A DNA stretch of 64,000 nt, taken from Pedobacter sp. SL55 (GTDB lineage: Bacteria > Bacteroidota > Bacteroidia > Sphingobacteriales > Sphingobacteriaceae). The DNA is taken from contig NZ_CP113059.1 of NCBI RefSeq assembly GCF_026625705.1, forward strand, positions 1,674,001 to 1,738,000, in the 5' to 3' direction. The translations under genes were made by a program, and so were the position numbers. Shown one piece after another: positions 4,340 through 32,408 of this stretch; position 1 is the stretch's first letter; every line of letters starts with the position of its first letter. The notes under the pieces were generated by a model. That model made no database searches. It was not told where the DNA came from and saw only the letters and a program-made list of their open reading frames with translations.

Positions 4340-4349
4340 GTTTTCACTG

Positions 4350-4952: not shown

Positions 4953-6632
<1,680 letters not shown>

Positions 6633-7632: not shown

Positions 7633-7649
7633 GTATTTTTCGTAATTAG

Positions 7650-7956
7650 AATGAGTTCGGGTTAAGCTTGAAAATGAAACTCTTTTAAAACAGTATTAAA
7701 AATGTCCTTTATTAGCTCGCTGCCGCTGGGCTCTTACTTTTTGACCGCAAAAAGTAACAAAAACTCTCGGTTGCTTATTTATTCAGTATTATTTTGTTTT
7801 CAATTGTTTTCATGCTTGCTTCGCAGGTTTCTTTCAAAGAAAGTTTACTTTGGCTTATTGCTGCAACCCGAAAAATAAGAGACCGAAAATTAGCTGAACG
7901 AAGGTTTGAAGCGCTATCGCTAGCGATAGTATTAATCTCCTTATCCCGACTCACGT
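7650..7956. mobile_element. Miniature inverted-repeat element, family B, copy 2
   Basis: About 307 bp, left end ATGAGTTCGGGTTAAG, right end TCCCGACTCACGT. It is flanked by a perfect 7-bp duplication TAATTAG (7643-7649 and 7957-7963). Internal TTACTTTTTG/CAAAAAGTAA hairpin with loop ACCG, and a matching CGGT box ~13 bases downstream. It is inserted exactly at the stop codon of the M28 gene. It carries an insertion relative to copy 3 near 7780-7830. Confidence 0.85.
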
Positions 7957-11481: not shown

Positions 11482-12468
11482 TTACGCATATATTTTGGCT
11501 AATCTGTACATAAAGAATTCAACATTTCTGACTCCTCTGAATTGAGTTCTTAGTGCTTTGATTTTAGCATTGAACGATTCTGCAGAAGCATTTGTATGCC
11601 TGTTGTCAAAGTAGTTCAGGATGGTGTGGTAGTGGTTCTGTATGGTTCTTGCCACGGTTGAAAATGCTTTTATGGCTGATTTTTCAACCTCATCATACCA
11701 TTTGGCGAGCCTGGTAAAACCGATGCCCTTCTCCTTTGTGTTTGAAAAGATATGAGACAGTTTCCTGCTCAGCCGATAGGCTTTCTCTAATAAGGGATAC
11801 CTGGCAAACAGCAGCTCTGACCTGTGCTGTTGGGAAGCTGTCCAGTTTGTTTCATCTTTAAATAACAGGTGCCTGCTACGGGCCAGTAATTGCTTTAAAC
11901 TATCTCCGTTTTCTAATATATCAGGCACATGGGGATGGTTTAGCTGTTTTGCCAGCTCCATTTCACTGTTTTCCTGATCGATAGCTTCCCATCGGTATTG
12001 AATGCGGATTTGTTGAACAGCATCTGCTGCAAGCTGCTGCACGTGAAAGCGGTCAGATACCAGTCTTGCCTTGGGGAAGGCACGCCTGGCAATACGCTCC
12101 ATCGTTGGAGCCAGATCCAAAGTAACCTCCTTTACTTCTTTACGAAGACGATAGGGAATGCGTTCAAGTATAGCAATCACCTGATCGCTGATGGTTCCTT
12201 TTACCATAGCCAGTAAAGCACCCTTTTTCCCCTTTGCATCCTTATTGGTGAGTACCGTATAGAGTTCTCCCCGGGACAGGCATACTTCATCCAGGCTTAG
12301 GTATTCTCCAATATTTTGTTCGAATAGAACCCAGTGGCCTGCATGAGAACGTTGGTCCCAGTCCATGAAATCACTTAGGTAACGAATATATTGTTCCTGC
12401 AACCGCCTGCCATCAAGCCCATACAGCTGACCCAATAGTTTGCAGCTGATAGGATGGTTATCGATCAA
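11482..12468 (-). CDS. ISL3-like transposase, inverted copy
   Basis: 328 aa, identical in translation to the copy at 12949-13935. DDE transposase of the ISL3/ISAon1 type: EVTLDLAPTMERIARRAFPKARLVSDRFHVQQL contains the catalytic Asp residues, and ASAESFNAKIKALRTQFRGVRNVEFFMYRLAKIYA the terminal Glu region. The frame opens with TTG at 12468; there is no ATG. In this copy the preceding N-terminal orfA is reduced to a remnant, so production of a functional full transposase from here is doubtful. Confidence 0.9.
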   Translation of the reverse strand: MIDNHPISCKLLGQLYGLDGRRLQEQYIRYLSDFMDWDQRSHAGHWVLFEQNIGEYLSLDEVCLSRGELYTVLTNKDAKGKKGALLAMVKGTISDQVIAILERIPYRLRKEVKEVTLDLAPTMERIARRAFPKARLVSDRFHVQQLAADAVQQIRIQYRWEAIDQENSEMELAKQLNHPHVPDILENGDSLKQLLARSRHLLFKDETNWTASQQHRSELLFARYPLLEKAYRLSRKLSHIFSNTKEKGIGFTRLAKWYDEVEKSAIKAFSTVARTIQNHYHTILNYFDNRHTNASAESFNAKIKALRTQFRGVRNVEFFMYRLAKIYA

Positions 12469-12611: not shown

Positions 12612-12959
12612 TTGGAACAGCAGGAACTACTCAAACTACTTCTACCGACAGAACTTATCGAACATTTTGACCTTATCCGCATCGAACCGATGGAAGATGG
12701 TTATCATTTATTTCTTGACCAGCATAATATTCCACCTGCGGAATTTGCCAGCCACAAGTTGGAATCCAAAGGATTTTTAGATCAGGCAATTATCCGTGAT
12801 TTTCCCTTGCGTGGCAAAGCCTGTTTCCTTCATCTTCGCCGTCGCAAATGGCATGACCATGATACCGGCGAATCCGTTTACAGTTCATGGAATACGGTGG
12901 CAGAGGGCACGCGTTTAACCGCAGAGTTCGCTGCTTTTTTAAAAGAATTTGATCGATAA
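12612..12959 (+). CDS. IS N-terminal transposase region protein (orfA)
   Basis: 115 aa, matching the separate N-terminal region protein that accompanies ISAon1-type transposases. It contains a small helical DNA-binding-like part and a basic KACFLHLRRRKWHDHDTGE segment. The frame is closed upstream by a TGA at 12600; the only plausible start is TTG at 12612, about 70 bases inside the left end. It overlaps orfB by 11 bases, with orfB in the +1 frame. Together they probably make one transposase by frameshifting or coupled re-initiation. Confidence 0.82.
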   Translation: MEQQELLKLLLPTELIEHFDLIRIEPMEDGYHLFLDQHNIPPAEFASHKLESKGFLDQAIIRDFPLRGKACFLHLRRRKWHDHDTGESVYSSWNTVAEGTRLTAEFAAFLKEFDR

Positions 12960-13935
12960 CCATCCTATCAGCTGCAAACTATTGGGTCAGCTGTATGGGC
13001 TTGATGGCAGGCGGTTGCAGGAACAATATATTCGTTACCTAAGTGATTTCATGGACTGGGACCAACGTTCTCATGCAGGCCACTGGGTTCTATTCGAACA
13101 AAATATTGGAGAATACCTAAGCCTGGATGAAGTATGCCTGTCCCGGGGAGAACTCTATACGGTACTCACCAATAAGGATGCAAAGGGGAAAAAGGGTGCT
13201 TTACTGGCTATGGTAAAAGGAACCATCAGCGATCAGGTGATTGCTATACTTGAACGCATTCCCTATCGTCTTCGTAAAGAAGTAAAGGAGGTTACTTTGG
13301 ATCTGGCTCCAACGATGGAGCGTATTGCCAGGCGTGCCTTCCCCAAGGCAAGACTGGTATCTGACCGCTTTCACGTGCAGCAGCTTGCAGCAGATGCTGT
13401 TCAACAAATCCGCATTCAATACCGATGGGAAGCTATCGATCAGGAAAACAGTGAAATGGAGCTGGCAAAACAGCTAAACCATCCCCATGTGCCTGATATA
13501 TTAGAAAACGGAGATAGTTTAAAGCAATTACTGGCCCGTAGCAGGCACCTGTTATTTAAAGATGAAACAAACTGGACAGCTTCCCAACAGCACAGGTCAG
13601 AGCTGCTGTTTGCCAGGTATCCCTTATTAGAGAAAGCCTATCGGCTGAGCAGGAAACTGTCTCATATCTTTTCAAACACAAAGGAGAAGGGCATCGGTTT
13701 TACCAGGCTCGCCAAATGGTATGATGAGGTTGAAAAATCAGCCATAAAAGCATTTTCAACCGTGGCAAGAACCATACAGAACCACTACCACACCATCCTG
13801 AACTACTTTGACAACAGGCATACAAATGCTTCTGCAGAATCGTTCAATGCTAAAATCAAAGCACTAAGAACTCAATTCAGAGGAGTCAGAAATGTTGAAT
13901 TCTTTATGTACAGATTAGCCAAAATATATGCGTAA
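12949..13935 (+). CDS. ISL3-like transposase (orfB), intact IS copy
   Basis: 328 aa DDE transposase. The catalytic region contains EVTLDLAPTMERIARRAF, LVSDRFHVQQLAADAVQQIR and the C-terminal NASAESFNAKIKAL. It opens with TTG at 12949 inside the end of orfA (…AAA GAA TTT GAT CGA TAA), with no ATG before it; its frame is open only from 12943. It therefore depends on orfA translation, by a +1 shift or re-initiation. It cuts and rejoins DNA at the ~24-bp terminal repeats. Confidence 0.92.
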   Translation: MIDNHPISCKLLGQLYGLDGRRLQEQYIRYLSDFMDWDQRSHAGHWVLFEQNIGEYLSLDEVCLSRGELYTVLTNKDAKGKKGALLAMVKGTISDQVIAILERIPYRLRKEVKEVTLDLAPTMERIARRAFPKARLVSDRFHVQQLAADAVQQIRIQYRWEAIDQENSEMELAKQLNHPHVPDILENGDSLKQLLARSRHLLFKDETNWTASQQHRSELLFARYPLLEKAYRLSRKLSHIFSNTKEKGIGFTRLAKWYDEVEKSAIKAFSTVARTIQNHYHTILNYFDNRHTNASAESFNAKIKALRTQFRGVRNVEFFMYRLAKIYA

Positions 13936-14003
13936 TCTTTCTAGCCCCCCCCAGATTATTTGCTTGATCCATTATTTGCTCTTTGTTTGGTGTTTTTGGC
14001 CAT

Positions 14004-14037
14004 AAAAAAACATCAACCTTGTTTAGTGATTGATGTT
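14004..14037 (-). terminator. Terminator of tRNA-Glu
   Basis: On the minus strand AACATCAA/TTGATGTT forms a hairpin followed by a T run, immediately after the tRNA 3' end. Confidence 0.8.
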
Positions 14038-14042
14038 TAATG

Positions 14043-14115
14043 TAGCCCGTAGGGGAATCGAACCCCTGTTTCCAGAATGAAAATCTGGCGTCCTCACCCC
14101 CTAGACGAACGGGCC
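14043..14115 (-). tRNA. tRNA-Glu (anticodon TTC), copy 1
   Basis: Minus strand, 73 nt without encoded CCA. Acceptor GGCCCGT pairs with ACGGGCT (first pair G-U). Anticodon stem-loop CCAGA-TTTTCAT-TCTGG with anticodon TTC. T arm CAGGG/CCCTA-type with GTTCGATTC. It has five G in the D-loop (GGGGGT) where the second copy at 42258 has four; otherwise the two genes look identical. Confidence 0.93.
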
Positions 14116-14319
14116 ATTTTATGTGGCTTTTGGCCTAATGGTCTGCAAAAGTAGGAGTTTAATATTATTTTGTCAAGAGCAATTTTTAGAATATTTTGAT
14201 TGTTGATTTTTGGGGGTGCTATACTGGTGCCATGCCTTGGTTGGGTATGGTTGTTGGATCATTGTTGATGAGTTGATTTGGTTAAAGCGTTCTGTAAACT
14301 GCAGAACGCTTTATCGATT

Positions 14320-14508
14320 TTATATACAGGTTTTTTGCACTAACTCGATATCTATGCCTGTGTACTCAGAAAATTCGGTAAGGGTAACGTACTGGTCTTT
14401 TCGCTTGTTCATGGCGTCTTTAATGGTTTGCAAGAGTTTTTGTGCATGGCGAACGCTCTTGCCTGTAAGGATACTTACGTCTTTTGGATAAATACATGCT
14501 CTTTTCAT
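14320..14508 (-). CDS. Small helix-turn-helix-like protein
   Basis: 62 aa. The pattern KDVSILTGKSVRHAQKLLQTIKDAMNK…VTLTEFSEYTGIDIELVQ suggests two helix-turn-helix-like helical pairs and a basic surface, reminiscent of excisionase/MerR-type DNA-binding proteins. The start ATG at 14508 gives a complete small domain. It stands between the tRNA-Glu/IS locus and the repeat arrays, so it may belong to the accessory element. No partner gene is visible. Confidence 0.65.
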   Translation of the reverse strand: MKRACIYPKDVSILTGKSVRHAQKLLQTIKDAMNKRKDQYVTLTEFSEYTGIDIELVQKTCI

Positions 14509-14813
14509 GCTAGTTGATGTTTTTTATGCCCCAGCAGGTGGTGCTGGAAAGTATGGGTGTTGCTAATTGTTATGCAAGCATAATATGGTACTCTCGTTGT
14601 ACTCTATCCCTACTTGAAACCTAGCTTTAACCTAAACTAAACCTACCTGAGCATGGTGTATAAAAAAGGGGTTAATTATAGTTACTCTAAGATAGAGTTG
14701 GTTTTTCTTGTGTGCAAGGTCATTTTGTGCACATTTGCGCAGTTTTTAACAGAATAGGGTGTTTTGCGAATAATGCGAAGTTTGAGGTTTAGGATGAACT
14801 AGTTTTTTCTTGT

Positions 14814-15190
14814 TCTTTTGGCTTGAACCAAAAGTTAACCAACCTGAGCGCTAGCGAAAGCTTGGCTGCCTATGAAAATAAAAACTAAAAAGGCATGATA
14901 TTGTGTTCTTTTGGCTTGAACCAAAAGAACCAAAAGTTCAAGGCTTCCGATATTTTGTTGCAAATCCACAAGCTGGGCTATTGATGCGCAAGAAAAAGGA
15001 GCGTGAATGTTGGAGTGGTATTTTGAGTTGGTAAAACGCTCTGCTTTCTTGCTTGTGGGTGTGAGCTTGAACGTTAATGCGATGCCCTGCTTGGTCTTTC
15101 CTTCCAAAATTTCGGAGGCCGGGGTGGCGTTCTTGGGAATGGAGGTGGTGTTTGCACAAGCCATGTCCCCCTTTGGAGGGGGTTGGGGGA
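14814..15190. repeat. R1 hairpin repeat unit, copy 1
   Basis: A hairpin CTTTTGG/CCAAAAG near 14814 is followed by a GAGCGCTAGCGAAAGC segment. Then comes the main hairpin GTTCTTTTGG/CCAAAAGAAC (loop CTTGAA at 14915-14920) with its complement TTCAAG at 14937. A long imperfect stem follows (GCAAGAAA…GGAGCG against CGCTCTGCTTTCTTGC), and the unit ends with the box GGCCGGGGTGGCGTTCTTGG. Non-coding; frames crossing it differ between copies. Confidence 0.8.
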
Positions 15191-15308
15191 GGATTGTATG
15201 TCTGAATGTCTCTTCAATTTCGGAATTTGCTCTTTGGAGAGTTTAAGTCTTTGATGTTTTTTAGCCTCATCCCGATTTTATGCGGGACAGGTTTTGCGGC
15301 TGGCCTAG

Positions 15309-15680
15309 TTCTTTTGGTTTGAACTAAAAGTTAACCAACCTGAGCGCTAGCGAAAGCATGGCTTCCTGTGAAAATAAAAACTAAAAAGGCATGATATCGT
15401 GTTCTTTTGGCTTGAACCAAAAGAACCAAAAGTTCAAGGCTTCCGATATTTTGTTGCAAATCCACAAGCTGGGCTATTGATGCGCAAGAAAAAGGAGCGT
15501 GAATGTTGGAGTGGTATTTTGAGTTGGTAGATCGCTCTGCTTTCTTGCTTGTGGGTGTGAGCTTGAACGTTAATGCGATGCCCTGCTTGGTCTTTCCTTC
15601 CAAAATTTCGGAGGCCGGGATGGCGTGCTTGGGAAAGGTGGTGGTTTTTGCACAAGCCATGTCCCCTCCGATGTATCGGA
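15309..15680. repeat. R1 hairpin repeat unit, copy 2
   Basis: About 95% identical to the unit 496 bases upstream. Main hairpin at 15401-15426 with loop CTTGAA, complement TTCAAG at 15433, the same long core stem, and end box GGCCGGGATGGCGTGCTTGG near 15615. Confidence 0.8.
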
Positions 15681-15766
15681 GCAGGCTCTTTGGAGAGTTT
15701 ATTCCGATGTAATCGGAAGGGTTGGGGGAGGAATGGTAACCGTTTTTTATTTTTTTTAGCAGTAAT

Positions 15767-16000
15767 AAACTTTGTCTTGATACAAAGTTTGACAAAAATC
15801 AAGGCTTGCACTTTTTCTTGAATTAAGCTGCCAACACATCTATAACGCAAGAAAAAGGCGTTTACTTCCCGCATGGCTATTGTTCACGCTGCTTTCTTGC
15901 TTGTAAGTACTATGTGTAAGTTAGTGCAAATGTGTTTAGCGCTTTCTCCTGCGAAAATCTGCTAGGCCGGGATGGCGTTCTTGGGAATGGAGGTGGTGTG
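15767..16000. repeat. R1-related hairpin repeat unit with a shortened core
   Basis: Hairpin AAACTTTGT/ACAAAGTTT with loop CTTGAT (15776-15781) and complement ATCAAG at 15798. Core stem AACGCAAGAAA…GGCGT against ACGCTGCTTTCTTGC preserves the R1 pairing with different bases. Ends with GGCCGGGATGGCGTTCTTGG near 15965. Confidence 0.75.
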
Positions 16001-16206
16001 TAATATCTGCTCCTTAACCGTCATCTCGACGATCCGTAGGAAGGAGAGATCTAGCATGATATATGAATGACGGCTAAATTGGGTATTGATGATTTCTTAT
16101 GTGTTCATTTTAGGCTGTTTGGTGTGCTTTTGCGCAGGATGTGTTGTTTTGCGAAGGGGCTTTTTTGTGAAGTATGGAATTTTGTATCGATGTAAATGCA
16201 AATATT

Positions 16207-16959
16207 ATGGCACATCAGGACAGTTTCATTAAATTAAAAGGAAGGATCGGGGATCTGACTTTTTACAAAACCAAAAGTGGTTACCTCGCTAGAGAAAAAG
16301 GCGGAATTGATGGTAACCGCATTGCCAATGACCCTAGGTTTCAACGTACCCGTGAAAACGGTGCGGAGTTTGGCAGGGCTGGCAGCGCCGCTAAATTGTT
16401 GAGGGATAGCTTAACGAGTATCATCAGCAATGGCAAGGATAGCGCCATGAGCAATCGGCTGACTAAGTTGATGCTGAAAGTGGTACAGGCAGATGCCATT
16501 AACGACCGTGGTATGCGTATGGTGCTGGATGCGGAAACGGAAATGCTGAAAGGCTTTGAGTTTAATGCGAATGCGCAAATTAATTCGGTGCTCTCGGTTA
16601 CTATCACCTCTAATATTGACCGTGCCACGGGAAGCTTAAAGGTAGAACTCCCAGAATTTGACCCAAGGGTGTTTGTGAAGACGCCACAGGGTGCTACGCA
16701 TTTTCAATTTAAGGCGATGGGCCTGGCCTTGAATTTTAGCACTGGCGCCAAGGAGCTGAATTTGCAAATGGGTGCTTTGCAACCGCTAGATGCCATAAGC
16801 ACGGCATTGAGCTTGGATTGTGACTTAACTGCCAATGCTAGCGATCCTCTCTTTTTGGTGTTTGGCGTAGAGTTTTACCAAATGGTAAATGGCAAAAATT
16901 ATCCTTTAAACAATGGTGCCCATAATGGTGTGTGCATCTTAAATGTGGCTGGTATTTAA
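16207..16959 (+). CDS. Conserved protein of unknown function (SFIKLKGRIGDLTFYK type)
   Basis: 250 aa from the ATG at 16207; the open frame begins 11 codons earlier, but MAHQDSFIKLKGRIGDLTFYK is the natural opening. No signal peptide or membrane segment. The N-terminal ~90 residues are basic and helical (REKGGIDGNRIANDPRFQRTRENGAEFGRA). The C-terminal ~130 are beta-rich with regular alternation (VTITSNIDRATGSLKVELPEFDPRVF…), suggesting a beta-sandwich or structural subunit. It overlaps the next gene by one base (TAATG), so the two are translationally coupled. It heads a small gene set enclosed by repeat arrays. I recognise it as a recurring Bacteroidota hypothetical, but no function can be given. 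Confidence 0.82.
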   Translation: MAHQDSFIKLKGRIGDLTFYKTKSGYLAREKGGIDGNRIANDPRFQRTRENGAEFGRAGSAAKLLRDSLTSIISNGKDSAMSNRLTKLMLKVVQADAINDRGMRMVLDAETEMLKGFEFNANAQINSVLSVTITSNIDRATGSLKVELPEFDPRVFVKTPQGATHFQFKAMGLALNFSTGAKELNLQMGALQPLDAISTALSLDCDLTANASDPLFLVFGVEFYQMVNGKNYPLNNGAHNGVCILNVAGI

Positions 16960-17363
16960 TGGAGCTGGTGCTAAAAAGGCAGTATTACGCCGAGGGCTGT
17001 AATGGTGCGATCTTTTTAAATGGTACGCAAATCTGTGAAACAATTGAGCTGCCGTGGCGCAATAATAAACGCAGTGTTAGCTGTATCCCAGAGGGTAGGT
17101 ATAGGTTGGTAAAGCGCTATCACCACCAGCGTGGCGAGCATTTGATGTTGGCCAATGTGCCGCAAAGGGAACTGATCTTGATACACCCCGCCAACTTTGC
17201 GCTGCGAGAGCTACAAGGTTGCATTGCTCCGGTTACTAAATGTACTGGCCCCGGTAAAGGGGATTATAGTAGGGTTGCGCTGGAGCGCTTGCAGGGGGTG
17301 GTATATCCGGTTTTGGATGATGGGGAGGAGGTGTGGTTAAGGGTGACAAGTGTTTCATCGTAG
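16959..17363 (+). CDS. DUF5675 family protein
   Basis: 134 aa from the ATG at 16959, which overlaps the previous stop. Sequence features include ICETIELPWRNNKRSVSCIPEGRYRLVKR, HPANFALRELQGCIAPVTKC and VALERLQGVVYPVLDDGEEVWLRV. This fits DUF5675, small beta-rich proteins often near phage lysis or structural genes. The conserved ELPW…SCIPEGRY and HPAN…L.GCIA motifs with Cys and His suggest an enzyme-like pocket, similar in layout to L,D-transpeptidase-like or hydrolase folds, but activity is unproven. Coupled to the upstream 250-aa gene. Confidence 0.82.
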   Translation: MELVLKRQYYAEGCNGAIFLNGTQICETIELPWRNNKRSVSCIPEGRYRLVKRYHHQRGEHLMLANVPQRELILIHPANFALRELQGCIAPVTKCTGPGKGDYSRVALERLQGVVYPVLDDGEEVWLRVTSVSS

Positions 17364-17492
17364 CGAAAGCACTAATTCATTTCCGTCATTGCTGCCTGTA
17401 CCAACTATTCGGAAAACGGAAGTGTTAGAATTGGAGAAGGAGATGCAGTCTTTTTGATAAGGTTCTTAGCCTCATTGCCGGCGGGGCTAGTC

Positions 17493-17829
17493 CTTTTCTC
17501 TTGAAAGAAAAGTACCAAAAGTTCAAGGCTGCATAAAATCTTCCTAAAAGCTGGAAGCCTTTAGCTAAATAAAAAGAACTCGCTACGCTCAGACAGCTTT
17601 TTATTCTTAACGCTAAGGCTTCCGCTTTCTTAACGTTGATTTGATGAGGCCGGGATGGTGTTCTTGGGAGTGGTGGTGGTTTTATGCACAAGCCATGTCC
17701 CCCTTTGGAGGGGGTTGGGGGAGGATCGTACAACTAACTGCACATCTCCTTAATTCGAAGCAGGCTCTTTGGAGAGTTTATTCCGGTGTAATCGGAAGGG
17801 TTGGGGGGAGGATTTATCCTTAATTATTT
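17493..17829. repeat. R2 hairpin repeat unit, copy 1
   Basis: Hairpin CTTTTCT/AGAAAAG with loop CTTGAA (17500-17505) and complement TTCAAG at 17522. The core is a long imperfect stem (GGAAGCCTTTAGC…AAATAAAAAG against CTTTTTATTC…GCTAAGGCTTCC), then the end box GGCCGGGATGGTGTTCTTGG and CACAAGCCATGTCCCC. Directly followed by a truncated copy of the small gene found intact at 19002. Confidence 0.8.
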
Positions 17830-17886
17830 ATGAAAAAAGTAAATATTGACATGGTTTTACCGCCTTCGGGGAAGTGGGGTGCCTAA
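17830..17886 (+). pseudogene. 5' fragment of the 69-aa gene, copy 1
   Basis: Reads MKKVNIDMVLPPSGKWGA then TAA. The first ~15 codons match the gene at 19002; after TTCGGGGAA the sequence switches to repeat DNA. Confidence 0.7.
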
Positions 17887-17902
17887 TGGGTTGTCTCTTT
17901 TA

Positions 17903-18251
17903 CTTTTGTCTTGATACAAAAGAAACAATCTTGAGCTTTAGCGAAAGCATGAATACCATTGAAAACAACTACAACTGATGAATAACATCAAGGCTGCATA
18001 AAATCTTCCTAAAAGCTGGAAGCCTTTAGCTAAATAAAAAGAACTCGCTACGCTCAGACAGCTTTTTATTCTTAACGCTAAGGCTTCCGCTTTCTTAACG
18101 TTGATTTGATGAGGCCGGGAGGGCGTTCTTGGGAATGGTGGTGGTTTTATGCACAAGCCATGTCCCCTCCGATGTATCGGAGCAGGCTCTTTGGAGAGTT
18201 TATTCCGATGTAATCGGGAGGGTTGGGGGGAGGATTTATCCTTAATTATTT
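17903..18251. repeat. R2 hairpin repeat unit, copy 2
   Basis: Hairpin CTTTTGT/ACAAAAG, loop CTTGAT (17910-17915). The complement ATCAAG lies 72 bases further on at 17987, after an inserted CTTGAGCTTTAGCGAAAGC segment. Same core and end box as copy 1. The distance to the next unit is 423 bases. Confidence 0.8.
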
Positions 18252-18401
18252 ATGAAAAAAGTAAATGTTGACATGGTTTTACTCGCCTTCGGCGAAGTGG
18301 GGTGCCTAATGGGTTGTCTCTTTTACTTTTGTCTTGATACAAAAGAAACAATCTTGAGCTTTAGCGAAAGCATGAATACCATTGAAAACAACTACAACTG
18401 A
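18252..18401 (+). pseudogene. 5' fragment of the 69-aa gene, copy 2 (frameshifted)
   Basis: Starts MKKVNVDMVL, then an extra C (ACTCGCC instead of ACCGCC) shifts the frame and it runs 49 codons into repeat DNA before TGA. Confidence 0.6.
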
Positions 18402-18673
18402 TGAATAACATCAAGGCTGCATAAAATCTTCCTAAAAGCTGGAAGCCTTTAGCTAAATAAAAAGAACTCGCTACGCTCAGACAGCTTTTTATTCTTAACG
18501 CTAAGGCTTCCGCTTTCTTAACGTTGATTTGATGAGGCCGGGATGGTGTTCTTGGGAATGGTGGTGGTTTTTGCTCAAGCCATGTCCCCTCCGATGTATC
18601 GGAGCAGGCTCTCTGGAGAGTTTATTCCGGTGTAATCGGAAGGGTTGGGGGTAGGATTTATCCTTAATTATTT
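18326..18673. repeat. R2 hairpin repeat unit, copy 3
   Basis: Hairpin loop CTTGAT at 18333-18338, complement ATCAAG at 18410, then the R2 core and end box at ~18535. Unit spacing to the next copy is 421 bases. Confidence 0.8.
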
Positions 18674-18730
18674 ATGAAAAAAGAAAATGTTGAAATGGTT
18701 TTACCGCCTTCGGGGAAGTGGGGTGCCTAA
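18674..18730 (+). pseudogene. 5' fragment of the 69-aa gene, copy 3
   Basis: Reads MKKENVEMVLPPSGKWGA then TAA; same break point as copy 1. Confidence 0.7.
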
Positions 18731-18746
18731 TGGGTTGTCTCTTTTA

Positions 18747-18995
18747 CTTTTGTCTTGATACAAAAGAAACAATCTTGAGCTTTAGCGAAAGCATGAATAC
18801 CATTGAAAACAACTACAACTGATGAATAACATCAAGGCTGCATAAAATCTTCCTAAAAGCTGGAAGCCTTTAGCTAAATAAAAAGAACTCGCTGCGCTCA
18901 GACAGCTTTTTATTCTTAACGCTAAGGTTTCCGCTTTCTTAACGTTGATTTGATGAGGCCGGGATGGCGTTCTTGGGAATGGTGGTGCTGGAGTG
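18747..18995. repeat. R2 hairpin repeat unit, copy 4
   Basis: Loop CTTGAT at 18754-18759, complement ATCAAG at 18831, core, then end box GGCCGGGATGGCGTTCTTGG at ~18957. It is followed by the intact 69-aa gene instead of a fragment. Confidence 0.8.
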
Positions 18996-19001
18996 TAATT
19001 T

Positions 19002-19211
19002 ATGAAAAAAGTAAATGTTGAAATGGTTTCACCACCTTCGGGGAAAGGTTGGTGGCCAAAAGTTAAAAATGTGGTTAAAAAGGTTGGCGCTGTGGCGGCT
19101 ATCGTTGTGGCTTCGCCGCTGAAATTGCCTAAGGCTGTAAAGGGTGTTGCGCAATATCTTGCCTTACTGGCGGGGTTAGTGGAGGCTAGTAAAGACCAAA
19201 AGGATGAATAG
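19002..19211 (+). CDS. 69-aa small amphipathic/membrane-associated protein
   Basis: MKKVNVEMVSPPSGKGWW… followed by a basic stretch (PKVKNVVKKVG) and a hydrophobic helix (AVAAIVVASPLKLPKAVKGVAQYLALLAGLVEA), ending in a charged tail. This layout suggests a small protein that inserts in or lies on the membrane, as seen in holin-like or toxin-like peptides; that is inference only. The ATG and first ~15 codons are repeated three times upstream at the end of each R2 unit. Overlaps the next gene by eight bases (GATGAATAG). Confidence 0.7.
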   Translation: MKKVNVEMVSPPSGKGWWPKVKNVVKKVGAVAAIVVASPLKLPKAVKGVAQYLALLAGLVEASKDQKDE

Positions 19212-19368
19212 TATTAGGAGTGGAACGCTTGCTGGTGCTACATTGAGCATCTTGCATCTTTTGCCTTGGGATAAGTTGCTAGAGACGGTCTTTTTAGCCG
19301 CAGTTGGCGCTAGTGCCAGTTTTTTAGTGAGTAGGTTGTGGCATCGGTTTTTTAAGCCTAAGTCGTAA
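19204..19368 (+). CDS. 54-aa putative membrane protein
   Basis: Starts at the ATG inside the end of the 69-aa gene (ATG 19204, previous stop 19209-19211), so it is translationally coupled. It contains two hydrophobic stretches (GTLAGATLSILHLLPW and TVFLAAVGASASFLVSRLW) and a basic C-terminus RFFKPKS, compatible with a small holin-like membrane protein. A strong terminator follows at once. With the 250-aa and DUF5675 genes it makes a four-gene set resembling a reduced phage structural/lysis module. Confidence 0.68.
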   Translation: MNSIRSGTLAGATLSILHLLPWDKLLETVFLAAVGASASFLVSRLWHRFFKPKS

Positions 19369-19372
19369 TTTG

Positions 19373-19408
19373 AACGGGTATCGTGAGGAACGGTACCCGT
19401 TTTTTTTG
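19373..19408 (+). terminator. Intrinsic terminator
   Basis: Stem AACGGGTATCGT/ACGGTACCCGTT with GAGGA loop, followed by eight or nine T; ends the small-gene operon. Confidence 0.9.
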
Positions 19409-19420
19409 TTTTACTTTACT

Positions 19421-19680
19421 TTACTTTTGGCTTGAACCAAAAGTAACAAAAGTTCAAGGCTGCCGATATTTTGTCGCAAATCCACAAGCTGGGCTATTGA
19501 TGCGCAAGAAAAAGGAGCGTTAGCGTTGGTGCTGTATCTGGGTTGGTAGATCGCTCTGTTTTCTTGCTTGTAGGTGCAACCTCTAGCGTTAATGCGATGC
19601 CCCGCTTGGTCTTTAATCCAAAATCTCGAAGGCCGGGATTAGGTGCTTTGGAATGGAGGTGGTTTTTGAAAGGTGTTGTT
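19421..19680. repeat. R1-type hairpin repeat unit after the operon
   Basis: Hairpin TTACTTTTGG/CCAAAAGTAA with loop CTTGAA (19431-19436), complement TTCAAG at 19453, the R1 core (GCAAGAAAAAGGAGCG…CGCTCTGTTTTCTTGC) and a worn end box near 19633. Confidence 0.78.
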
Positions 19681-19707
19681 TTTTTACTTTGTTTTTAATT
19701 GATAGGA

Positions 19708-20575
19708 GGTATAAACTTTGTCTTGATAAAAAGTTTGACAAAAATCAAGGCTTGTATCTATTTTGGTAAAAATTCGTCGAACCACTCTCGAAAATAATTT
19801 AAGGTTTTACCCTGTACTTTGGCCACCACACAACTGAAAATTATTTTGTGTAATGCGATTTGAGTGGAACTACAGGTGGTTTCAACGATTTTCCCTCAAA
19901 ATATCTACTAGGCCAATCCGTGCTTGGCTAAGGTTGTACCATTGTTTGAGTGACAACCAGACCTAATACTTAATTTTTGTTTTACTTTTTTATTAGTTGG
20001 GACTTTAAACTTTGTCTTGATACAAAGTTTGACAAAAATCAAGGCTTGTATCTATTTTGGTAAAAATTCGTCGAACCACTCTCGAAAATAATTTAAGGTT
20101 TTACCCTGTACTTTGGCCACCACACGACTGAAAATTATTTTGTGTAATGCGATTTGAGTGGAACTACAGGTGGTTTCAACGATTTTTCCTCAAAATATCT
20201 ACTAGGCCAATCCGTGCTTGGCTAAGGTTGTACCATTGTTTGAGTGACAACCAGACCTAATACTTAATTTTTGTTTTACTTTTTTATTAGTTGGGACTTT
20301 AAACTTTGTCTTGATACAAAGTTTGACAAAAATCAAGGCTTGTATCTATTTTGGTAAAAATTCGTCGAACCACTCTCGAAAATAATTTAATGTTTTACCC
20401 TGTACTTTGGCCACCACACACTGAAAATTATTTTGTGTAATGCGGTTTGAGTGGAACTACAGGTGGTTTCAACGATTTTCCCTCAAAATATCTACTAGGC
20501 CAATCCGTGCTTGGCTAAAGTTGTACTTTTGTTTGAGTGACAACCAGACCTAATACTTGATTTTAATGCTTTTGC
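19708..20575. repeat. R3 array: three 294-bp tandem hairpin units
   Basis: Units start with AAACTTTGT/ACAAAGTTT (loop CTTGAT) at about 19713, 20007 and 20301; the first has lost part of the stem. Each has the complement ATCAAG, then a core with GTCGAACCAC/GTGGTTTCAAC, CCACTC/GAGTGG and AAAATAATTT/AAATTATTTT pairings. Units are >95% identical. No coding frame. The following ~250 bases to the gene at 20843 hold another worn end box (~20630) and a GATATC hairpin (~20742-20766). Confidence 0.85.
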
Positions 20576-20842
20576 CCTAGGTACAGGTGCTGAGATTTTG
20601 TCGCAAATTCACAAGCCAAAATCTCGAAGGCTGGGAGGAGTGATTGGGAATGGTAGTGGTTTTTCACTGTTGTGCGCTATATGACCTATTAAGTGTTAGC
20701 TGAAATGTATGGGTTATCTCTTGAGCAAACCTATGCCTTGAATGGATATCGTGATTAGTGATATCTGTTTTTACCTGTTTATTGGTATTTACCAAATACT
20801 TAAAGCTCAGTAAATTTGTTTTGAACCATTAAAACTCAAATC

Positions 20843-21403
20843 ATGAAAAGAATTTTATTTTTCCTTGTGATATCAGGAATGCTTGTAGGGGGTTCCCACG
20901 CTCAACAACAAAAAGATGATATTGAAACTTTTGAATTGAAAGAGATTGTATCTTTAATTAACAACAGTTTAGAAAAAGCTTCAAAGGAACTTGATGTTAG
21001 CATGCAGCCAAAGTTGCAATCTGCGGAGATTACGTTAAGCACCATTTACAATAAGACTGGCGGTGGCGGCTTTAAGATTATTGCTAAAGCTTCAAAAAAA
21101 TGGCAATTAGAAAGATCAACTACATTGACCTTTAGTTATGAAAAAAATAATAATAAAGGGTTGCTGACACTATCATTTGAAGTTCATTTAAAGGATGCGG
21201 TTGTGGCTGCTTCGCAACAATGGGCAGGTGCTAGCACTGGGGTTACAGGTCTATCTAAAAAAGAATTCTCGGTAGAGTTATCTTTTAGCCTAAAGAAATC
21301 GGGTTCGGGAGGCGTAGAATTTGAAGTTTGGGGAATTGGTATTGATGCATCAGTAGATGTAGATAAAACTGTGGCTCATAAAGTAAAGCTTACTTTCAAA
21401 TAA
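20843..21403 (+). CDS. Secreted trypco2-like domain protein
   Basis: 186 aa. Signal peptide MKRILFFLVISGMLVGGSHAQ. The rest resembles the trypsin-co-occurring domain 2 (trypco2): an amphipathic helix (LKEIVSLINNSLEKASKELD), a strand with AEITLSTIY, and the closing GGVEFEVWGIGIDAS…AHKVKLTFK, where that family ends in a G-V-x-F-x-V…H-V-L pattern. In other bacteria the domain is linked to predicted conflict/defence proteins and proteases. Here it is stand-alone and exported, which is unusual. The middle (residues ~70-140) is a longer beta-rich insert. Assignment is by motif recognition only. Confidence 0.72.
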   Translation: MKRILFFLVISGMLVGGSHAQQQKDDIETFELKEIVSLINNSLEKASKELDVSMQPKLQSAEITLSTIYNKTGGGGFKIIAKASKKWQLERSTTLTFSYEKNNNKGLLTLSFEVHLKDAVVAASQQWAGASTGVTGLSKKEFSVELSFSLKKSGSGGVEFEVWGIGIDASVDVDKTVAHKVKLTFK

Positions 21404-21554
21404 TTTTTAGATTAACAATGTGTACGGCAAAGGGTAGAGTGATGAACTGTACCTGTTTTTTACATTGCTTTTTTCATTAGAGGTAGGCGTTTTTAATTGT
21501 ATTGATATCTTCGATGGTTTTCAAGAACTCAGCTTTTCAGCTTCGGTTTAAGAA

Positions 21555-21640
21555 TGCTTCTCAGTTTGGCTTGAGCCAAAAGTGACAAAATCCCGATAAC
21601 TATCCTATCATTAAACGTTGTACTTTTTCTTGAATAAAGC
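21555..21640. repeat. Decayed fragment of the hairpin repeat
   Basis: TTTGGCTTGAGCCAAAAGTGACAAAA-type hairpin (loop CTTGAG) followed by CTTTTTCTTGAATAAAGCTG as in the unit at 15767; the complementary box is lost. Confidence 0.55.
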
Positions 21641-21739
21641 TGTTTGTTAAACAAAAGGAAGGTTGATTTGTTAAGGTAATGATGTTATATTCCAATAGCA
21701 AAACAGTAAAGCATTGGTTTGTAATAAGTTTAAATTATT

Positions 21740-21769
21740 TTTGTTAATAAAAAAATGTACGTACATTTG
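21740..21769 (+). promoter_or_regulatory. Bacteroidota-type promoter
   Basis: TTTG (21740-21743) and TACATTTG (21762-21769) with 18 bases between, matching the TTTG/TAnnTTTG promoter pattern. It faces rightward into a short segment with no gene on that strand. Confidence 0.55.
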
Positions 21770-21775
21770 CATTGC

Positions 21776-21842
21776 TCATTCTGCCATACTCGGAGAAAGG
21801 AGTTTCGAAGCCCGATACATCACGAAATGTACCGGGCTTTGC
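21776..21842 (+). ncRNA. Candidate small RNA with terminator stem
   Basis: A promoter 7 bases upstream and a strong stem AAGCCCGATACAT/ATGTACCGGGCTT (21808-21839) delimit a ~65-nt transcript. The same stem can serve as terminator for the minus-strand gene ending at 21846. No family recognised. Confidence 0.35.
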
Positions 21843-21845
21843 GGT

Positions 21846-22376
21846 TTAAAGTACATTACTTAGTTTTTTCTTTAGCTTGTTAAGAATTTGCTTTTTACCC
21901 CCTGGTTGGTTTAAATGATAAGCCGTAAGCAAATAATAATCCATGCCACTACGTTGTGGCTCTAGGATGATTACATATTCTTGCTCTACATCGTAAATAT
22001 AGGTTCTATTGATGCTTTTGCCGTTAACCCTGTCTTCGTAGCTAAATACTTCAATATTGCCCACTTTTCTCTCATCAATATGATGTTTGATCCAATGTAG
22101 TCTTTGTGAACGAGCCAATTCAAAACTTCTTGTACCAGTTTTTTTACCTTTATTATCAAGGTCATCAACAGTAGTTAAGTGCCTAAAAAGTAACTCCATA
22201 GCAGAAACTCCTTCTTCCTTTTTTAAAGGTCTAATTTGTTTGGCTCTAAATTTAAAGGATGTATTTTCCTCAATATTATTTTTAAAAACACCTAACAGTG
22301 AAAGTGTTCTCTGTTTCTCGTTTAGCTGTACAATTTCTAATAATGCAGGATATACTTTGATAAGATTTAAGGGCAT
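21846..22376 (-). CDS. BECR-fold (PBECR2-like) nuclease domain protein
   Basis: 176 aa. The C-terminal half has the layout of barnase/EndoU/colicin-E5/RelE-like (BECR) RNases of the phage-linked PBECR type: SQRLHWIKHHIDE, VEVFSYED-like strand, YIYDVEQEYVIILEPQRSGMDYYLLTAYHLNQPGGKKQI with conserved Tyr, Arg and a closing strand. The N-terminal ~80 residues are unassigned. Its start overlaps the end of the DUF3800 gene by 10 bases, so the two are coupled. A paired nuclease/RNase-H-like protein suggests a toxin or defence unit; activity is inferred. Confidence 0.72.
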   Translation of the reverse strand: MPLNLIKVYPALLEIVQLNEKQRTLSLLGVFKNNIEENTSFKFRAKQIRPLKKEEGVSAMELLFRHLTTVDDLDNKGKKTGTRSFELARSQRLHWIKHHIDERKVGNIEVFSYEDRVNGKSINRTYIYDVEQEYVIILEPQRSGMDYYLLTAYHLNQPGGKKQILNKLKKKLSNVL

Positions 22377-23056
22377 GCCGAATTATTTGAGATCAATAAA
22401 AAAAGATTAAATTTTGTTGAATCTTTAGTTGTGGAATGTGTAAGTGGAGATTTGCTATGCGCTTGAATCTTCTCGATGATCTTATTTTTTGCAATAACGG
22501 TGTTGTGCCCTCTCAAATGATAGCCAATAGCTCCCATAATTACGTCAGTAAGTTGCATTAATTCGCTTTCATGAGATTGTATGGTATGTAAGTTTCTTAC
22601 AGCAATAAAATTAAGGTTTAAGTATTTCTTTAGGCTGGCGGCTTTTTTGTAACTCTGCGTATCCTTAATATCAAGATATATATTGTAACTATGCTCTGGA
22701 AAAATTTTCTTATTTAATAGTTGATAATACATTTTGTCGTAAAAATCATTATGGCTCTGATTAAATTCAGCATGCTTCAATTTTGATTTATCTATAACAA
22801 TAGCTCTGAATTGCAAATCAGTAGCAAAAAAATATTCAATCAATTCACTATAAAAGGGGTATTGAGATTTTGAAAGACTGCTCCACTTAATTTCACCCTT
22901 AATGAAATGCTTCAGTTTAATTGCCCTGATATTATTGCTGTGTAATTTTACTTGATTGTAAGCGCAGCTGATGTAAGAAATGAGCATAAATGGAAAAGAA
23001 TCATTTTCCAAATGGCAGCTCTCATCACAGTAAAAATTATAAGTCTTGTTTGGCAT
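22367..23056 (-). CDS. DUF3800 domain protein (RNase H-like fold)
   Basis: 229 aa. The opening NFYCDESCH, the internal YNIYLDIKDTQSYKK and the C-terminal LMQLTDVIMGAIGYHLRG place it in DUF3800, predicted RNase H-fold proteins with acidic active-site residues (Asp11, Asp near 123, Asp near 171). Family members occur in defence and mobile-element settings. First gene of a coupled pair with the BECR-like protein. A worn GGCCGGGATGG-type box lies just upstream at ~23150. Confidence 0.85.
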   Translation of the reverse strand: MPNKTYNFYCDESCHLENDSFPFMLISYISCAYNQVKLHSNNIRAIKLKHFIKGEIKWSSLSKSQYPFYSELIEYFFATDLQFRAIVIDKSKLKHAEFNQSHNDFYDKMYYQLLNKKIFPEHSYNIYLDIKDTQSYKKAASLKKYLNLNFIAVRNLHTIQSHESELMQLTDVIMGAIGYHLRGHNTVIAKNKIIEKIQAHSKSPLTHSTTKDSTKFNLFLLISNNSACP

Positions 23057-23272
23057 ATTTACGAAGATAAAATTCTAATTATTATTTATTTGAACAATGA
23101 TTAGAATAAATTGAAATTCAATACTTGTAGTGCTCTTTGTAAAATCTCGAATGCTGGGATTTTGAACGGTAGTGGTTTAGGTTAGTGTTCTTAATCGATA
23201 TATTTTAGGATTAGGTTGGATGGTTGTTTTTCCGTAAAATATTTATCTTAGCCTTATCTAATTAATAGTGAC

Positions 23273-24235
23273 TTGCAAAACCCAACGCTCCAAAAATACG
23301 CCAAAGCCTTTGCCAAACTCAAACGAGGTGGCACCAAATACGGTGCGGCACCGCATAAACCTATCTTGCTGTTAAGCATCATTGAACTCATAGAAAAAGA
23401 CATCGTAACCGATAACCGAGTAGGGGTAGATGCCCAACTGGTAGGTACCTTTAAAGAGAACTGGCTCTTGCTGGTAACTACCGCACATCAAGAAGATTTT
23501 ACACAACCTTTCTATTACCTACAAAATGAAAAGATAGCAGGCCAAGGCTATTGGTTTTTACAGCCTATGCTGGGCTGCCAAATTAATGCCCATATCAAAT
23601 CGGTAAGTGTATTGGCTAGCGTTTGCGAATTTGGTTACTTGGCAACAGATTTATGGCTCTTGTTAAACGATGCGGTAAGCCGAAGCTATTTAAGGCAGGT
23701 ATTGCTTGATACCTATTTTGCAGCAACCAAAAATAACCTTCTCAATGCCAAACAGCAGGGACAAGGCTATTTGAACGACCAAACTTCCGATCTGCTCGAA
23801 GAACCCGAAGCAAAATACAAACACATCAGCAAATACACAGAAGAGGATGTTTTTGTGCGCAATGGCCTGTTTAAACGCCTAGTGCCCAAACTTTACCAGC
23901 AGCAGTGTAGCTTTACAGGTATGAGCTTAAGTAGCATGTACAAGCATAGTTTTATAGATGCCTGCCACATTGTACCTTTTAGCCGTACCCAAAACGATAG
24001 CGTTACCAACGGCATTGCGCTTTGCCCTAATATGCACCGTGCTTTTGACCGTGGCTTGCTCAGCATAGATGAAACCTACCGTATTTTAGTTTCCGAACAT
24101 TTAACGGAAGATAAAAAACATCCTTATGCGCTTAGTGCATTAAAGGGACGACCAATCCTATTGCCGCAACAACAAAACCACTACCCAGCGCAGGAAGCTT
24201 TGGCTTGGCATAGGAGTGAGGTGTTTAAAGGATAA
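23273..24235 (+). CDS. HNH endonuclease
   Basis: 320 aa beginning at a TTG (23273), as no ATG is found for more than 200 codons. The N-terminal ~170 residues are helical (KYGAAPHKPILLLSIIELIE), a specificity-type domain common to HNH restriction endonucleases. The C-terminal HNH_2 motif is CHIVPFSRTQNDSVTNGIALCPNMHRAFDRGLLSID with the metal-binding His, Asn and His residues. Likely a DNA-cutting restriction/defence enzyme. No methyltransferase partner is present, so it may target modified DNA or act as a stand-alone nuclease. Confidence 0.92.
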   Translation: MQNPTLQKYAKAFAKLKRGGTKYGAAPHKPILLLSIIELIEKDIVTDNRVGVDAQLVGTFKENWLLLVTTAHQEDFTQPFYYLQNEKIAGQGYWFLQPMLGCQINAHIKSVSVLASVCEFGYLATDLWLLLNDAVSRSYLRQVLLDTYFAATKNNLLNAKQQGQGYLNDQTSDLLEEPEAKYKHISKYTEEDVFVRNGLFKRLVPKLYQQQCSFTGMSLSSMYKHSFIDACHIVPFSRTQNDSVTNGIALCPNMHRAFDRGLLSIDETYRILVSEHLTEDKKHPYALSALKGRPILLPQQQNHYPAQEALAWHRSEVFKG

Positions 24236-24241
24236 ATCCAG

Positions 24242-24400
24242 ATGTTTAAAGTAATTAAATTAATATGGAAAGACCCCGTTTGGAGTAAACTGATCTCCGT
24301 TGGATTGTTGGCCATTATAGCATTGGTCTATAACTTTATATCAGGATTTTATAACTTTTGGGCGAAAGGAATTGAAAGTCTAAGCTTAGTAAATTACTAA
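24242..24400 (+). CDS. 52-aa single-pass membrane protein
   Basis: MFKVIKLIWKDPVWSKLIS followed by a hydrophobic helix GLLAIIALVYNFISGFYNF. It begins four bases after the HNH stop (TAA 24233-24235). The WKDPVWSKxIS motif is one I associate with the membrane-anchoring ends of larger Bacteroidota defence or signalling proteins; here it stands alone. Could be a partner of the HNH protein or a remnant of a larger gene. Confidence 0.55.
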   Translation: MFKVIKLIWKDPVWSKLISVGLLAIIALVYNFISGFYNFWAKGIESLSLVNY

Positions 24401-24470
24401 GTCCAGTAAACTTTAATCTACTTTTAATCGTTATTGAACTGAGCTAAATTATTATTAAATTTAAGTTTAT

Positions 24471-24478
24471 TACCTTTG
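24471..24478 (+). promoter_or_regulatory. -7 box of the sce7726 operon
   Basis: TACCTTTG, matching TAnnTTTG, ends five bases before the ATG at 24483, so the transcript would be leaderless or nearly so. No clear -33 box. Confidence 0.5.
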
Positions 24479-24482
24479 CTCT

Positions 24483-25367
24483 ATGCTTACTAAAGCAACG
24501 CAATCTTCCGCCAATCTCAATTCATTAGCCAAATTAATCTCTAATGCTGGCTTTAAACGTCTTATGCAAAATGATGAGCATAGGAAGTATGCTAGGCAAA
24601 TGAAATCCCTGCTTAGTAAGAATGGTGCTGCTATCAAAGATAAGTGTAGTATTAAAGACCTTATCCAGTTTTCTTACGATTACCTGTTGGCAAATTATAG
24701 ACATGAATATGTTTATAAGAGCGCATTGCTAAACACATTCATTCTAAAAGATCATTCGCTTTCCGATACCGTATTGCTAAACGAATTTAAAATTGGGAAT
24801 TCTAAAGCTGATACCATTTTAGTTAATGGTACTAATAAAGTTTTTGAAATTAAAACGGAATTGGATAGTCCAGCTAGATTAAAAAGCCAGTTAGATGACT
24901 ATTACAAAGGTTTTTCAGAGGTTTATTTGTTGGTTCATCACTCTCTAGTAGATAGATATATGGGGGTAGTAGATCCGCATGTAGGTATCATGGCATTTTC
25001 TCCATTAAATGAGATAGAAGTAGTTTATAGGGCAACTCCAGATAATTCAAAACTGGATTATGCCACTATGCTGAGATCTTTGCGTAAAGACGAATATTTA
25101 AGTGTGATTAAAAATTTAATAGGTTACGTGCCAACTGTCCAGCCTATCCGTTTATTTAACGAATGCCTTGAAATTGCCAAATCTTTTGACGCAGAAACAG
25201 TACAAGCTGAATTTTTGAAGGTAATTAAGTATCGCATAAATGATGAAACAAATTTAGTTACTACTAAGGCTAATTTGCCAGATTATATAAGACTAGCTTG
25301 CTATCATGCTAATTTAACTGAAAATGATTATCTTGCATTAACAAAAAGATTAAATAACCAAATCTAG
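24483..25367 (+). CDS. sce7726 family protein
   Basis: 294 aa. Contains a PD-(D/E)XK nuclease-like core: LNEFKIGNSKADTILVNGTNKVFEIKTELDSPARLKSQLDDYYKGFSEVYLLV, where the Asp and the ExK pair fit the catalytic pattern. The N-terminal helices and the C-terminal helical domain flank it. sce7726 is a named but uncharacterised family. It is followed after 8 bases by its usual neighbour sce7725 and then by a HEPN/RES protein, forming an operon. Probably a nuclease-like component of a defence or toxin system. Confidence 0.88.
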   Translation: MLTKATQSSANLNSLAKLISNAGFKRLMQNDEHRKYARQMKSLLSKNGAAIKDKCSIKDLIQFSYDYLLANYRHEYVYKSALLNTFILKDHSLSDTVLLNEFKIGNSKADTILVNGTNKVFEIKTELDSPARLKSQLDDYYKGFSEVYLLVHHSLVDRYMGVVDPHVGIMAFSPLNEIEVVYRATPDNSKLDYATMLRSLRKDEYLSVIKNLIGYVPTVQPIRLFNECLEIAKSFDAETVQAEFLKVIKYRINDETNLVTTKANLPDYIRLACYHANLTENDYLALTKRLNNQI

Positions 25368-25375
25368 TTAATGCC

Positions 25376-26317: not shown

Positions 26318-26325
26318 TTTCTGCT

Positions 26326-27396: not shown

Positions 27397-27408
27397 ATAG
27401 GATATCTA

Positions 27409-28038: not shown

Positions 28039-28048
28039 AGCATTAAAT

Positions 28049-29218: not shown

Positions 29219-29367
29219 TTGCATCGATTATTTTAATATATCATTTTGTAAGTCAAAATTTAAGCGTTCGTTGTTTTGTCTGCAATAAAAAATTGTTTTA
29301 AAATAAATTTGTTGGGTATTTTTTAATGTATGTCTTAAAAATTAAATCTTATACTTAACGCATCCAC

Positions 29368-30576: not shown

Positions 30577-30697
30577 TATTCAATGTAGACGTAATAGTCA
30601 CCAGCAAATGCTGGCGCCAGAAGGGGGCTCCAATTGATTCCAAAGCACAATCTCTGTTAATAAACAGCCTCAAGACAAAAAGTTAACTGTAAACTAA

Positions 30698-32376: not shown

Positions 32377-32408
32377 AATGTTGAATTAGTATTATTTAGG
32401 CTTTGTTT

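Follow-up and report, generated by a model that had tools for sequence, protein, structure and literature searches.

The window analysed here, a stretch of 64,000 nucleotides from Pedobacter sp. SL55 (contig NZ_CP113059.1, positions 1,674,001 to 1,738,000), contains 12 copies of what comparison of the copies shows to be a dispersed non-coding element of ~160–250 nt with selected base pairing. Each copy, hereafter the unit, carries a compact hairpin (stem S1) whose six-base loop is complementary to a nearby box (helix S2), followed by a long irregular hairpin (P3). The sequence comparisons reported below give good support to its pairing, its extent and its wide distribution. More tentatively, the unit could represent a new phylum-wide structured nucleic acid of Bacteroidota, in which a 3'-terminal pseudoknot with a U.A-U triple helix is joined to a fast-evolving long hairpin and the whole behaves as a mobile unit. 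If so, it would be, within the searches made here, the first bacterial mobile element recognised via a triple-helix fold, as RNA or as single-stranded DNA.

Two interlocked helices and a long hairpin

A preliminary description of this DNA had reported at least a dozen copies in an array and one more at 33.9 kb, with stems of 7–10 bp and a loop that always matched the box. The repeat itself stands far above chance: the pattern CTTGAW..WTCAAGGC matched nine times in the window versus 0.09 expected, and none of 100 shuffled sequences reached nine. A search in which the loop was left free (any 6-base loop with its complement at most 90 nt from a stem of at least six pairs) returned 11 units of this design, with perfect stems of the length described, plus two unrelated matches; 20 shuffles gave 0–5 matches (mean 1). 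The counts were corrected to a total of 12 loop/box-matched units, 11 in the array (including the copy at 19712, which has a stem mismatch) and one at 33895–33932. The same 12 were recovered by a covariance model built on cores from the window and other genomes, with scores of at least 39 bits for nine full pseudoknots and 34.6 bits for three copies of a type called R2. This model also returned two box-less hairpins, three weaker matches (21.9–25.2 bits) that correspond to another element, and further matches near or above an E-value of 0.03. The loop/box match holds in the 12 units; it does not hold "always", since the hairpins at 14815–14834 and 15311–15330 have no box.

The R2 units, at 17900, 18323 and 18744, are closely similar tandem copies according to the repeat-family table and therefore count as one event. 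The displacement of their box by ~70 bases, as originally described, corresponds to a single duplicated variant that lacks the A-tract adjoining the box, which is present in the other nine units.

Extraction of pseudoknot cores yielded 232 unique sequences, from which 20 with fewer than five of the six inner stem pairs were removed. Loop base 6 and box base 1 were left free in this extraction (though for some of the loci retrieval had required A/T at the two positions), and they pair in 206 of the 212 remaining cores, as A-T in 48, C-G in 34 and T-A in 124. Before the stem filter the loop paired with the box in 220 of 232 cores, and 14 of the 20 removed cores do so. The window itself contains two states only, A-T and T-A, the C-G state being added by other genomes. 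The search pattern fixes CTTGA, AA and TCAAGGC, so that invariance at these bases is not evidence; of the six pairs of S2 only one varies, since the pattern holds the remaining five constant. In S1, two of pairs 1–6 were fixed on one side by the pattern and all six were partly ascertained by the stem filter. Pairs 7–10, which were not filtered on, are Watson-Crick in 180–190 of the 212 cores, versus 71–111 expected if the two sides were independent. Compensated changes occur at pairs 1, 2 and 7–10, and pairs 3–6 are almost always T-A.

We measured covariation on an alignment of 63 of the 77 unique cores having the commonest spacing, which is that of 105 of the 212 cores. In this alignment 98.6% of the cells are paired, the covariation score is 0.388 versus 0.086 after shuffling, with 0 of 500 shuffles reaching it, and 147 cells have changed on both sides versus 42 in shuffled alignments. 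The signal collapses when the alignment is slid by one column, the slid versions scoring at most 0.070. Two interlocked helices are thus backed by covariation, S2 through its one varying pair. The preliminary description had proposed selection for a hairpin plus pseudoknot, with an alignment from more genomes as a check. The loop/box pairing, the stem compensation and the covariation score all bear the proposal out, and the loop/box match is not lost in the copies of other genomes.

These results bear directly on the possibility that the units are passive intergenic repeats, that is, hairpins duplicating in tandem or by recombination in permissive regions under no present selection. Tandem copies do occur in the window and in other genomes, and a single cluster of P3 sequences is combined with several types of stem, which suggests that copies reassort their modules. 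In five relatives, a region of ~20–30 kb in which housekeeping genes alternate with variable cargo holds many units. However, compensated changes in loop and box, stem and linker over many lineages require selection, or a selected source of copies, and the covariation of the 63-core alignment likewise disfavours this explanation, which we consider improbable.

The hairpin and box of the preliminary description are genuine but form only one end of the unit. After the box, each window unit continues, as seen in the sequence and in the repeat tables, with a long irregular hairpin closed by GGCT...AGGCC. Among units from other genomes, 175 of 195 have a fold closed by GGC/GCC, in 146 of these 175 with a hairpin of 110–199 nt. 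The end of P3 was located in 295 of 331 units, 236 of them unique; it was picked as the best-folding GCC, so that P3 pairing is not an independent test. From S1 to GGCC the 236 unique units have a median length of 195 nt (5–95% range 162–252). We also read ten copies in one genome with 51 matches: compared with one reference copy, seven share 472–500 bp, one shares 254 bp plus 60, and one has in common only the 192 bp between the foot of S1 and a point just past GGCC, which marks the unit ends in this single case.

The exact pattern was present in 83 of 145 congeneric genomes, with 414 matches in total versus 12 for a reversed control pattern; the source genome has 13 matches of a stricter pattern. 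Copies are many, in both orientations, tandem and dispersed. As to a bias for one replication strand, which was considered and rejected, one genome holds six copies within 150 kb on mixed strands. A looser pattern had at least one match, many by chance, in 113 of 395 genomes of the phylum. Scanning one genome per species across 84,980 species gave at least 120 stretches, and the 80 titles listed all belonged, judged by name, to Bacteroidota or Balneolaceae. The plasmid matches were three Parabacteroides distasonis records and IMG/VR contained 20 matching stretches; no phage record matched one unit taken together with its surroundings. Judged by these matches, the unit is widespread in Bacteroidota and also found in Balneolaceae; similar repeats, expected at first in relatives, are in fact phylum-wide. 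No unit had a match in Rfam (window at gathering score; 14000–21500 at E up to 1; 18 Bacteroidota loci at gathering score), a comparison that covers Flavo-1, Pedo-repair, SAM-II, STAXI and the rest and agrees with the earlier view that the repeat has no named family. Literature searches by sequence string and by topic found no description of the unit, preprints and most subscription papers being outside their coverage.

A linker in register with the stem

The 6–16 bases between stem and box turned out not to be the mere spacer that the preliminary description implied: they vary in register with the stem. In 188 of 212 cores the A-run of the linker and the T-A run of the stem are equally long; after shuffling, the mean is 114 and the maximum 130. 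Linker position −k tracks stem pair k+1: a T-A pair goes with A, a C-G pair at position 6 or 7 goes with C, and pair 2 goes with A or G. Counted over 180 distinct types, T-A at pair 2 faces A in 63 of 64 and C-G faces G in 10 of 10; at pair 6, T-A faces A in 164 of 167 and C-G faces C in 12 of 13; at pair 7 the figures are 45 of 48 (A facing T-A) and 93 of 104 (C facing C-G). This register is parallel to the 5' arm of the stem. An antiparallel one gave no signal at position −1 with pair 7 (mutual information 0.045 versus a shuffled mean of 0.042), and the idea that the linker instead base-pairs with that arm was rejected because the register is wrong.

On the complementary strand, the same correspondence places a U/T-tract parallel to an A-tract, so that T-A pairs read as U.A-U and pair 2, where it is C-G, reads as C.G-C. 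Within an H-type pseudoknot, such triples have the geometry of a deep-groove pyrimidine triple helix. Read 5' to 3', the folded strand would consist of GGCC, P3, AGCC, the S2 strand CUUGAN, the U-rich linker, S1, NUCAAG and the A-rich strand of S1. Pairing of NUCAAG with CUUGAN would create the H-type pseudoknot, with a core of 38 nt, and the linker would run parallel to the A-rich strand, one base per S1 pair, forming U.A-U triples in the deep groove.

Some observations count against this arrangement. Similar linker-stem signals appear off the diagonal at outer positions (for instance, −8 with pair 7, mutual information 0.39) and the linker rule is loose from pair 8 outward (at T-A pairs the linker has A 37 times, C 23 times, G 8 times and T once), which indicates that shared descent inflates the register values. 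In addition, at C-G pairs 6–8 the folded strand has G in the linker where C+ would be canonical. On balance, we infer that the linker contacts the stem, and the covariation, which is the evidence on this point, makes a triple helix probable. As evolutionary evidence for a tertiary fold, base-triple covariation across a phylum is both direct and rare, and the 38-nt core is small enough to be synthesised and tested directly.

The strand that folds is probably the reverse complement of the one presented in the preliminary description, as the asymmetry of wobble pairs suggests. Using 139 units in 16 clusters, RNAalifold gave the complementary strand the lower consensus energy in every one of the 16, and wobble versus A.C columns numbered 100 versus 47 on that strand and 44 versus 62 on the other. 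Folding that permits GU pairs itself favours one strand, so the test was repeated on GU-free structures. It yielded 74 G.T columns for the complementary strand versus 42, with clusters split 13 to 1 and two ties (binomial p 0.004); without the conserved-pair filter there were 418 versus 358 columns, and clusters split 13 to 2 with one tie. Weighing on the other side, the edge in energy z-score is slight (mean −4.72 versus −4.42; 70 of 113 representatives, p 0.08), and composition accounts for part of the energy difference between strands.

Triple-helix pseudoknot structures are found in telomerase RNA, SAM-II/SAM-V riboswitches and ENE elements. The unit resembles them in its inferred strand order and in its U-rich loop, which runs parallel to an A-rich strand of the stem, but it is dispersed, multi-copy, not placed beside regulated genes, without Rfam match and known from sequence alone. 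Arrays of triplex-stabilised pseudoknots also occur in the RNAs of type III toxin-antitoxin systems (ToxI), a similarity limited by the size of the units here (~160–250 nt), each with one pseudoknot. Given that the inferred topology is that of the SAM-II pseudoknot class, one might think of a cis-regulatory RNA, namely a SAM-II-like riboswitch or attenuator. Yet there is no Rfam match, and the neighbouring gene on the A-rich side is oriented with the folded strand in 39 cases and against it in 33 (p 0.56); this placement largely refutes a cis-regulatory role, to which we attach very little probability.

Among structured motifs, the STAXI motif (RF01728) also consists of repeated pseudoknots, for which its authors weigh single-stranded DNA versus RNA; it is placed in Enterobacteriales, with pseudoknots repeated two or three times per motif and near DNA-handling genes (PMC2864571). 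It does not match the unit. Flavo-1 RNA (RF01705) is a structured Bacteroidetes motif with matches sense, antisense or outside transcripts (PMC9723704). Being a single hairpin, it is unlike the unit in sequence as well. At one locus (L254), two Flavo-1 hairpins, at 3400–3483 (−) and 4267–4350 (+), lie beside but not on a unit, one of them directly adjoining it; Flavo-1 could be a further dispersed element that shares this habitat.

Possible mobility and transcription, and candidate partners

Our preferred reading, to which we give slightly less than an even chance, makes the unit a non-autonomous mobile element that would be recognised in the form of a folded single strand. Like repetitive extragenic palindromes (REPs) or miniature inverted-repeat transposable elements, it would be copied in trans. 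Mobility is favoured by the number of copies, tandem as well as dispersed and in both orientations, by their position outside long open reading frames (0 of 83 inside one), and by the copy, one of ten read in one genome, that has only the stretch from S1 to GGCC in common with the reference. The best candidate partners in the genus would be chromosomal HUH Y1 transposases, acting on the unit as single-stranded DNA. Among the 145 congeneric genomes, 75 contain both the unit and PF01797 (Y1_Tnp), 8 the unit only, 7 Y1 only and 55 neither (odds ratio 74); the corresponding numbers for DDE_Tnp_1 are 36, 47, 24 and 38 (odds ratio 1.2). A reverse transcriptase partner was rejected (RVT_1: 42, 41, 30 and 32; odds ratio 1.1). 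The co-occurrence supports Y1 enzymes as partners in this genus, and this genus-level tie provides a concrete partner for experiments on the core.

Several results speak against mobility mediated by Y1. The 145 genomes share ancestry and the co-occurrence counts ignore kinship. Across the phylum the link is weak, Y1 being present in 21 of 25 genomes with at least three matches (counted by eye, chance matches included) versus 271 of 395 overall (Fisher p 0.12), and in two genomes with 15 and 12 matches no Y1 was detected. A loop-box scan of ~1.5 kb on each side of Y1 genes at 34 loci found no whole unit, and BLAST over the same distance at 63 Y1 loci gave matches of 23–85 nt, none of them across the pseudoknot. 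No fixed cleavage tetranucleotide was apparent on inspection outside S1 and GGCC, nor was any target duplication seen at the unit ends. As for other marks of transposition, inspection revealed no inverted repeats linking the two ends of the unit, and no empty site was found in the single interval of two relatives compared, which was too rearranged to show ends. Other short palindromic repeats lie near units in one compared interval and could be the true Y1 clients.

The closest known counterparts of such an element are the REPs and bacterial interspersed mosaic elements that accompany REP-associated tyrosine transposases (RAYTs, of the Y1 type). They share with the unit the nature of short dispersed intergenic hairpin elements, the many copies, the tandem clusters and, in this genus though only weakly across the phylum, the co-occurrence with Y1. 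By contrast, inspection showed no tag tetranucleotide at the hairpin foot of the units, and none lies beside the Y1 genes examined. To our knowledge, neither a pseudoknot nor a triple register has been described for REPs.

IS605/TnpB guide RNAs have pseudoknot-and-triplex scaffolds near the guide. With Y1 genes co-occurring, the unit might be imagined as such a scaffold left without its nuclease, but TnpB (PF07282) is present in only 2 of the 145 congeneric genomes, which largely refutes this origin for the genus and makes it highly unlikely.

A more serious competitor, which we regard as a substantial possibility though clearly below an even chance, is a structured RNA transcribed from a neighbouring or unrecognised promoter and acting either as a small RNA or to stabilise RNA, with its copies being spread secondarily by recombination or some enzyme. 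The 3' end of this RNA would sit in the U.A-U triple helix, and ENE elements of viral and transposon RNAs are known to hold a 3' end in this way. The U.A-U register together with G.U wobble on one strand, the strong folding (z about −4.7) and the phylum-wide conservation of the A/U tract of stem and linker, beyond what a passive repeat needs, all favour it. On the other hand, T.A-T and G.T also form in DNA, and signals of transcription are wanting. The promoter motif TAnnTTTG is absent within 20 nt of the unit on the folded strand (0 of 105) and shows no enrichment on the other (2 of 104), so that transcripts starting at the hairpin, as envisaged in the preliminary description, are unsupported. 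T-runs past the A-rich end are not commoner than upstream (10 of 105 versus 8). Placement and orientation relative to genes are not significant either, the gene on the GGCC side lying with the folded strand in 38 cases and against it in 25 (p 0.13); none of 83 units in named loci lies inside a long open reading frame. If the fold is real, the unit would be either an unrecognised Bacteroidota family of non-coding RNA or mobile DNA with a triple-helix pseudoknot as its recognition signal.

Units of the window and their surroundings

Strands given here are those inferred to fold. Eight complete units of the array lie on the minus strand, at 14905–15120 (pseudoknot 14905–14942, P3 long hairpin to GGCC at 15117–15120; 60.8 bits), 15401–15616 (pseudoknot 15401–15438 and P3; 60.8 bits), 15766–15968 (15766–15803 and P3; 47.0 bits), 17490–17651 (17490–17527 and P3; 56.3 bits), 19421–19634 (19421–19458 and P3; 60.0 bits), 19712–19914 (single stem mismatch; 39.0 bits), and 20006–20208 and 20300–20501 (both among 294-bp tandem copies; 47.0 bits each). 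Between them, also on the minus strand, the R2 unit at 17900–18116 has stem, loop, an insertion of ~60 nt before the box, no box A-tract and a retained P3 (34.6 bits over model positions 10–38), and its tandem copies occupy 18323–18539 and 18744–18960 (34.6 bits each). The unit at 33731–33932 is inverted with respect to the array (plus strand; GGCC 33731–33734, P3, pseudoknot 33895–33932) and has the best score in the window, 62.4 bits. The box-less hairpins of the same kind, both on the minus strand, score 24.5 bits (14815–14834, not in the loop-box list) and 10.5 bits (15311–15330, loop TTTGAA; E 0.96). A remnant at 20588–20636 (minus strand; repeat families D14, D15 and D7) retains the outer arms of a 14905-type P3 without the pseudoknot.

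The interval between the array and the inverted unit (20843–33866) carries variable cargo, including a Trypco2-domain protein, DUF3800 and an AbiH-like gene, and has the look of a defence-type island with units at its borders. Next to the array lies a pair of ISL3-type transposase genes (11482–12468, minus strand; 12949–13935, plus strand), which are inverted relative to each other and identical in length and score. The protein encoded at 16174–16959, without Pfam match, belongs to a family also seen near units at loci L261 (2526–3278), L267 (1178–1924), L137 (5905–6723) and L141 (7205–7948), and present in this genome, two congeners, Flavobacterium stagni and Leeuwenhoekiella marinoflava; it occurs at 2 of 120 named loci. 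A small open reading frame at 14320–14508 also has a relative in L261.

On one Parabacteroides plasmid a unit begins six bases after an HU-family gene, and on another a unit follows a partial copy of an HU-family gene, with a second, inverted unit nearby. The HU/DUF4248/amidase cassette around these two copies was considered as a partner and rejected, HU being found at 2 of 120 loci and more than 3.5 kb off, DUF4248 at 1 of 120 and the amidase at 0 of 120.

At loci L132 and L136, in an interval between the same two genes that is probably the matching place, two species carry units that differ in stem sequence and have 74.6% identity over the unit, with 93% identity in parts of the flanks; copies may thus have exchanged modules. 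Also in L132 (genome G041), at ~5130–5600, a sequence with ends CCTATCGTGTGGACACATC / GATGTGTCCACACGATAGG lies within a palindromic repeat, as a terminal-inverted-repeat insertion.

Finally, the window contains three copies of another element of ~250–300 bp with inverted-repeat-like ends, at 600–900, 7640–7960 and 45370–45640, the ends of the 45.4 kb copy being GAGTTCGGGTTAA / TTATCCCGAACTC. It has a hairpin of similar kind, TTACTTTTTG/CAAAAAGTAA, that carries a CAAAA tail but differs in its loop, ACCG; CGGT follows in two of the copies. This element may be related to the unit and have a loop/box pair of its own.

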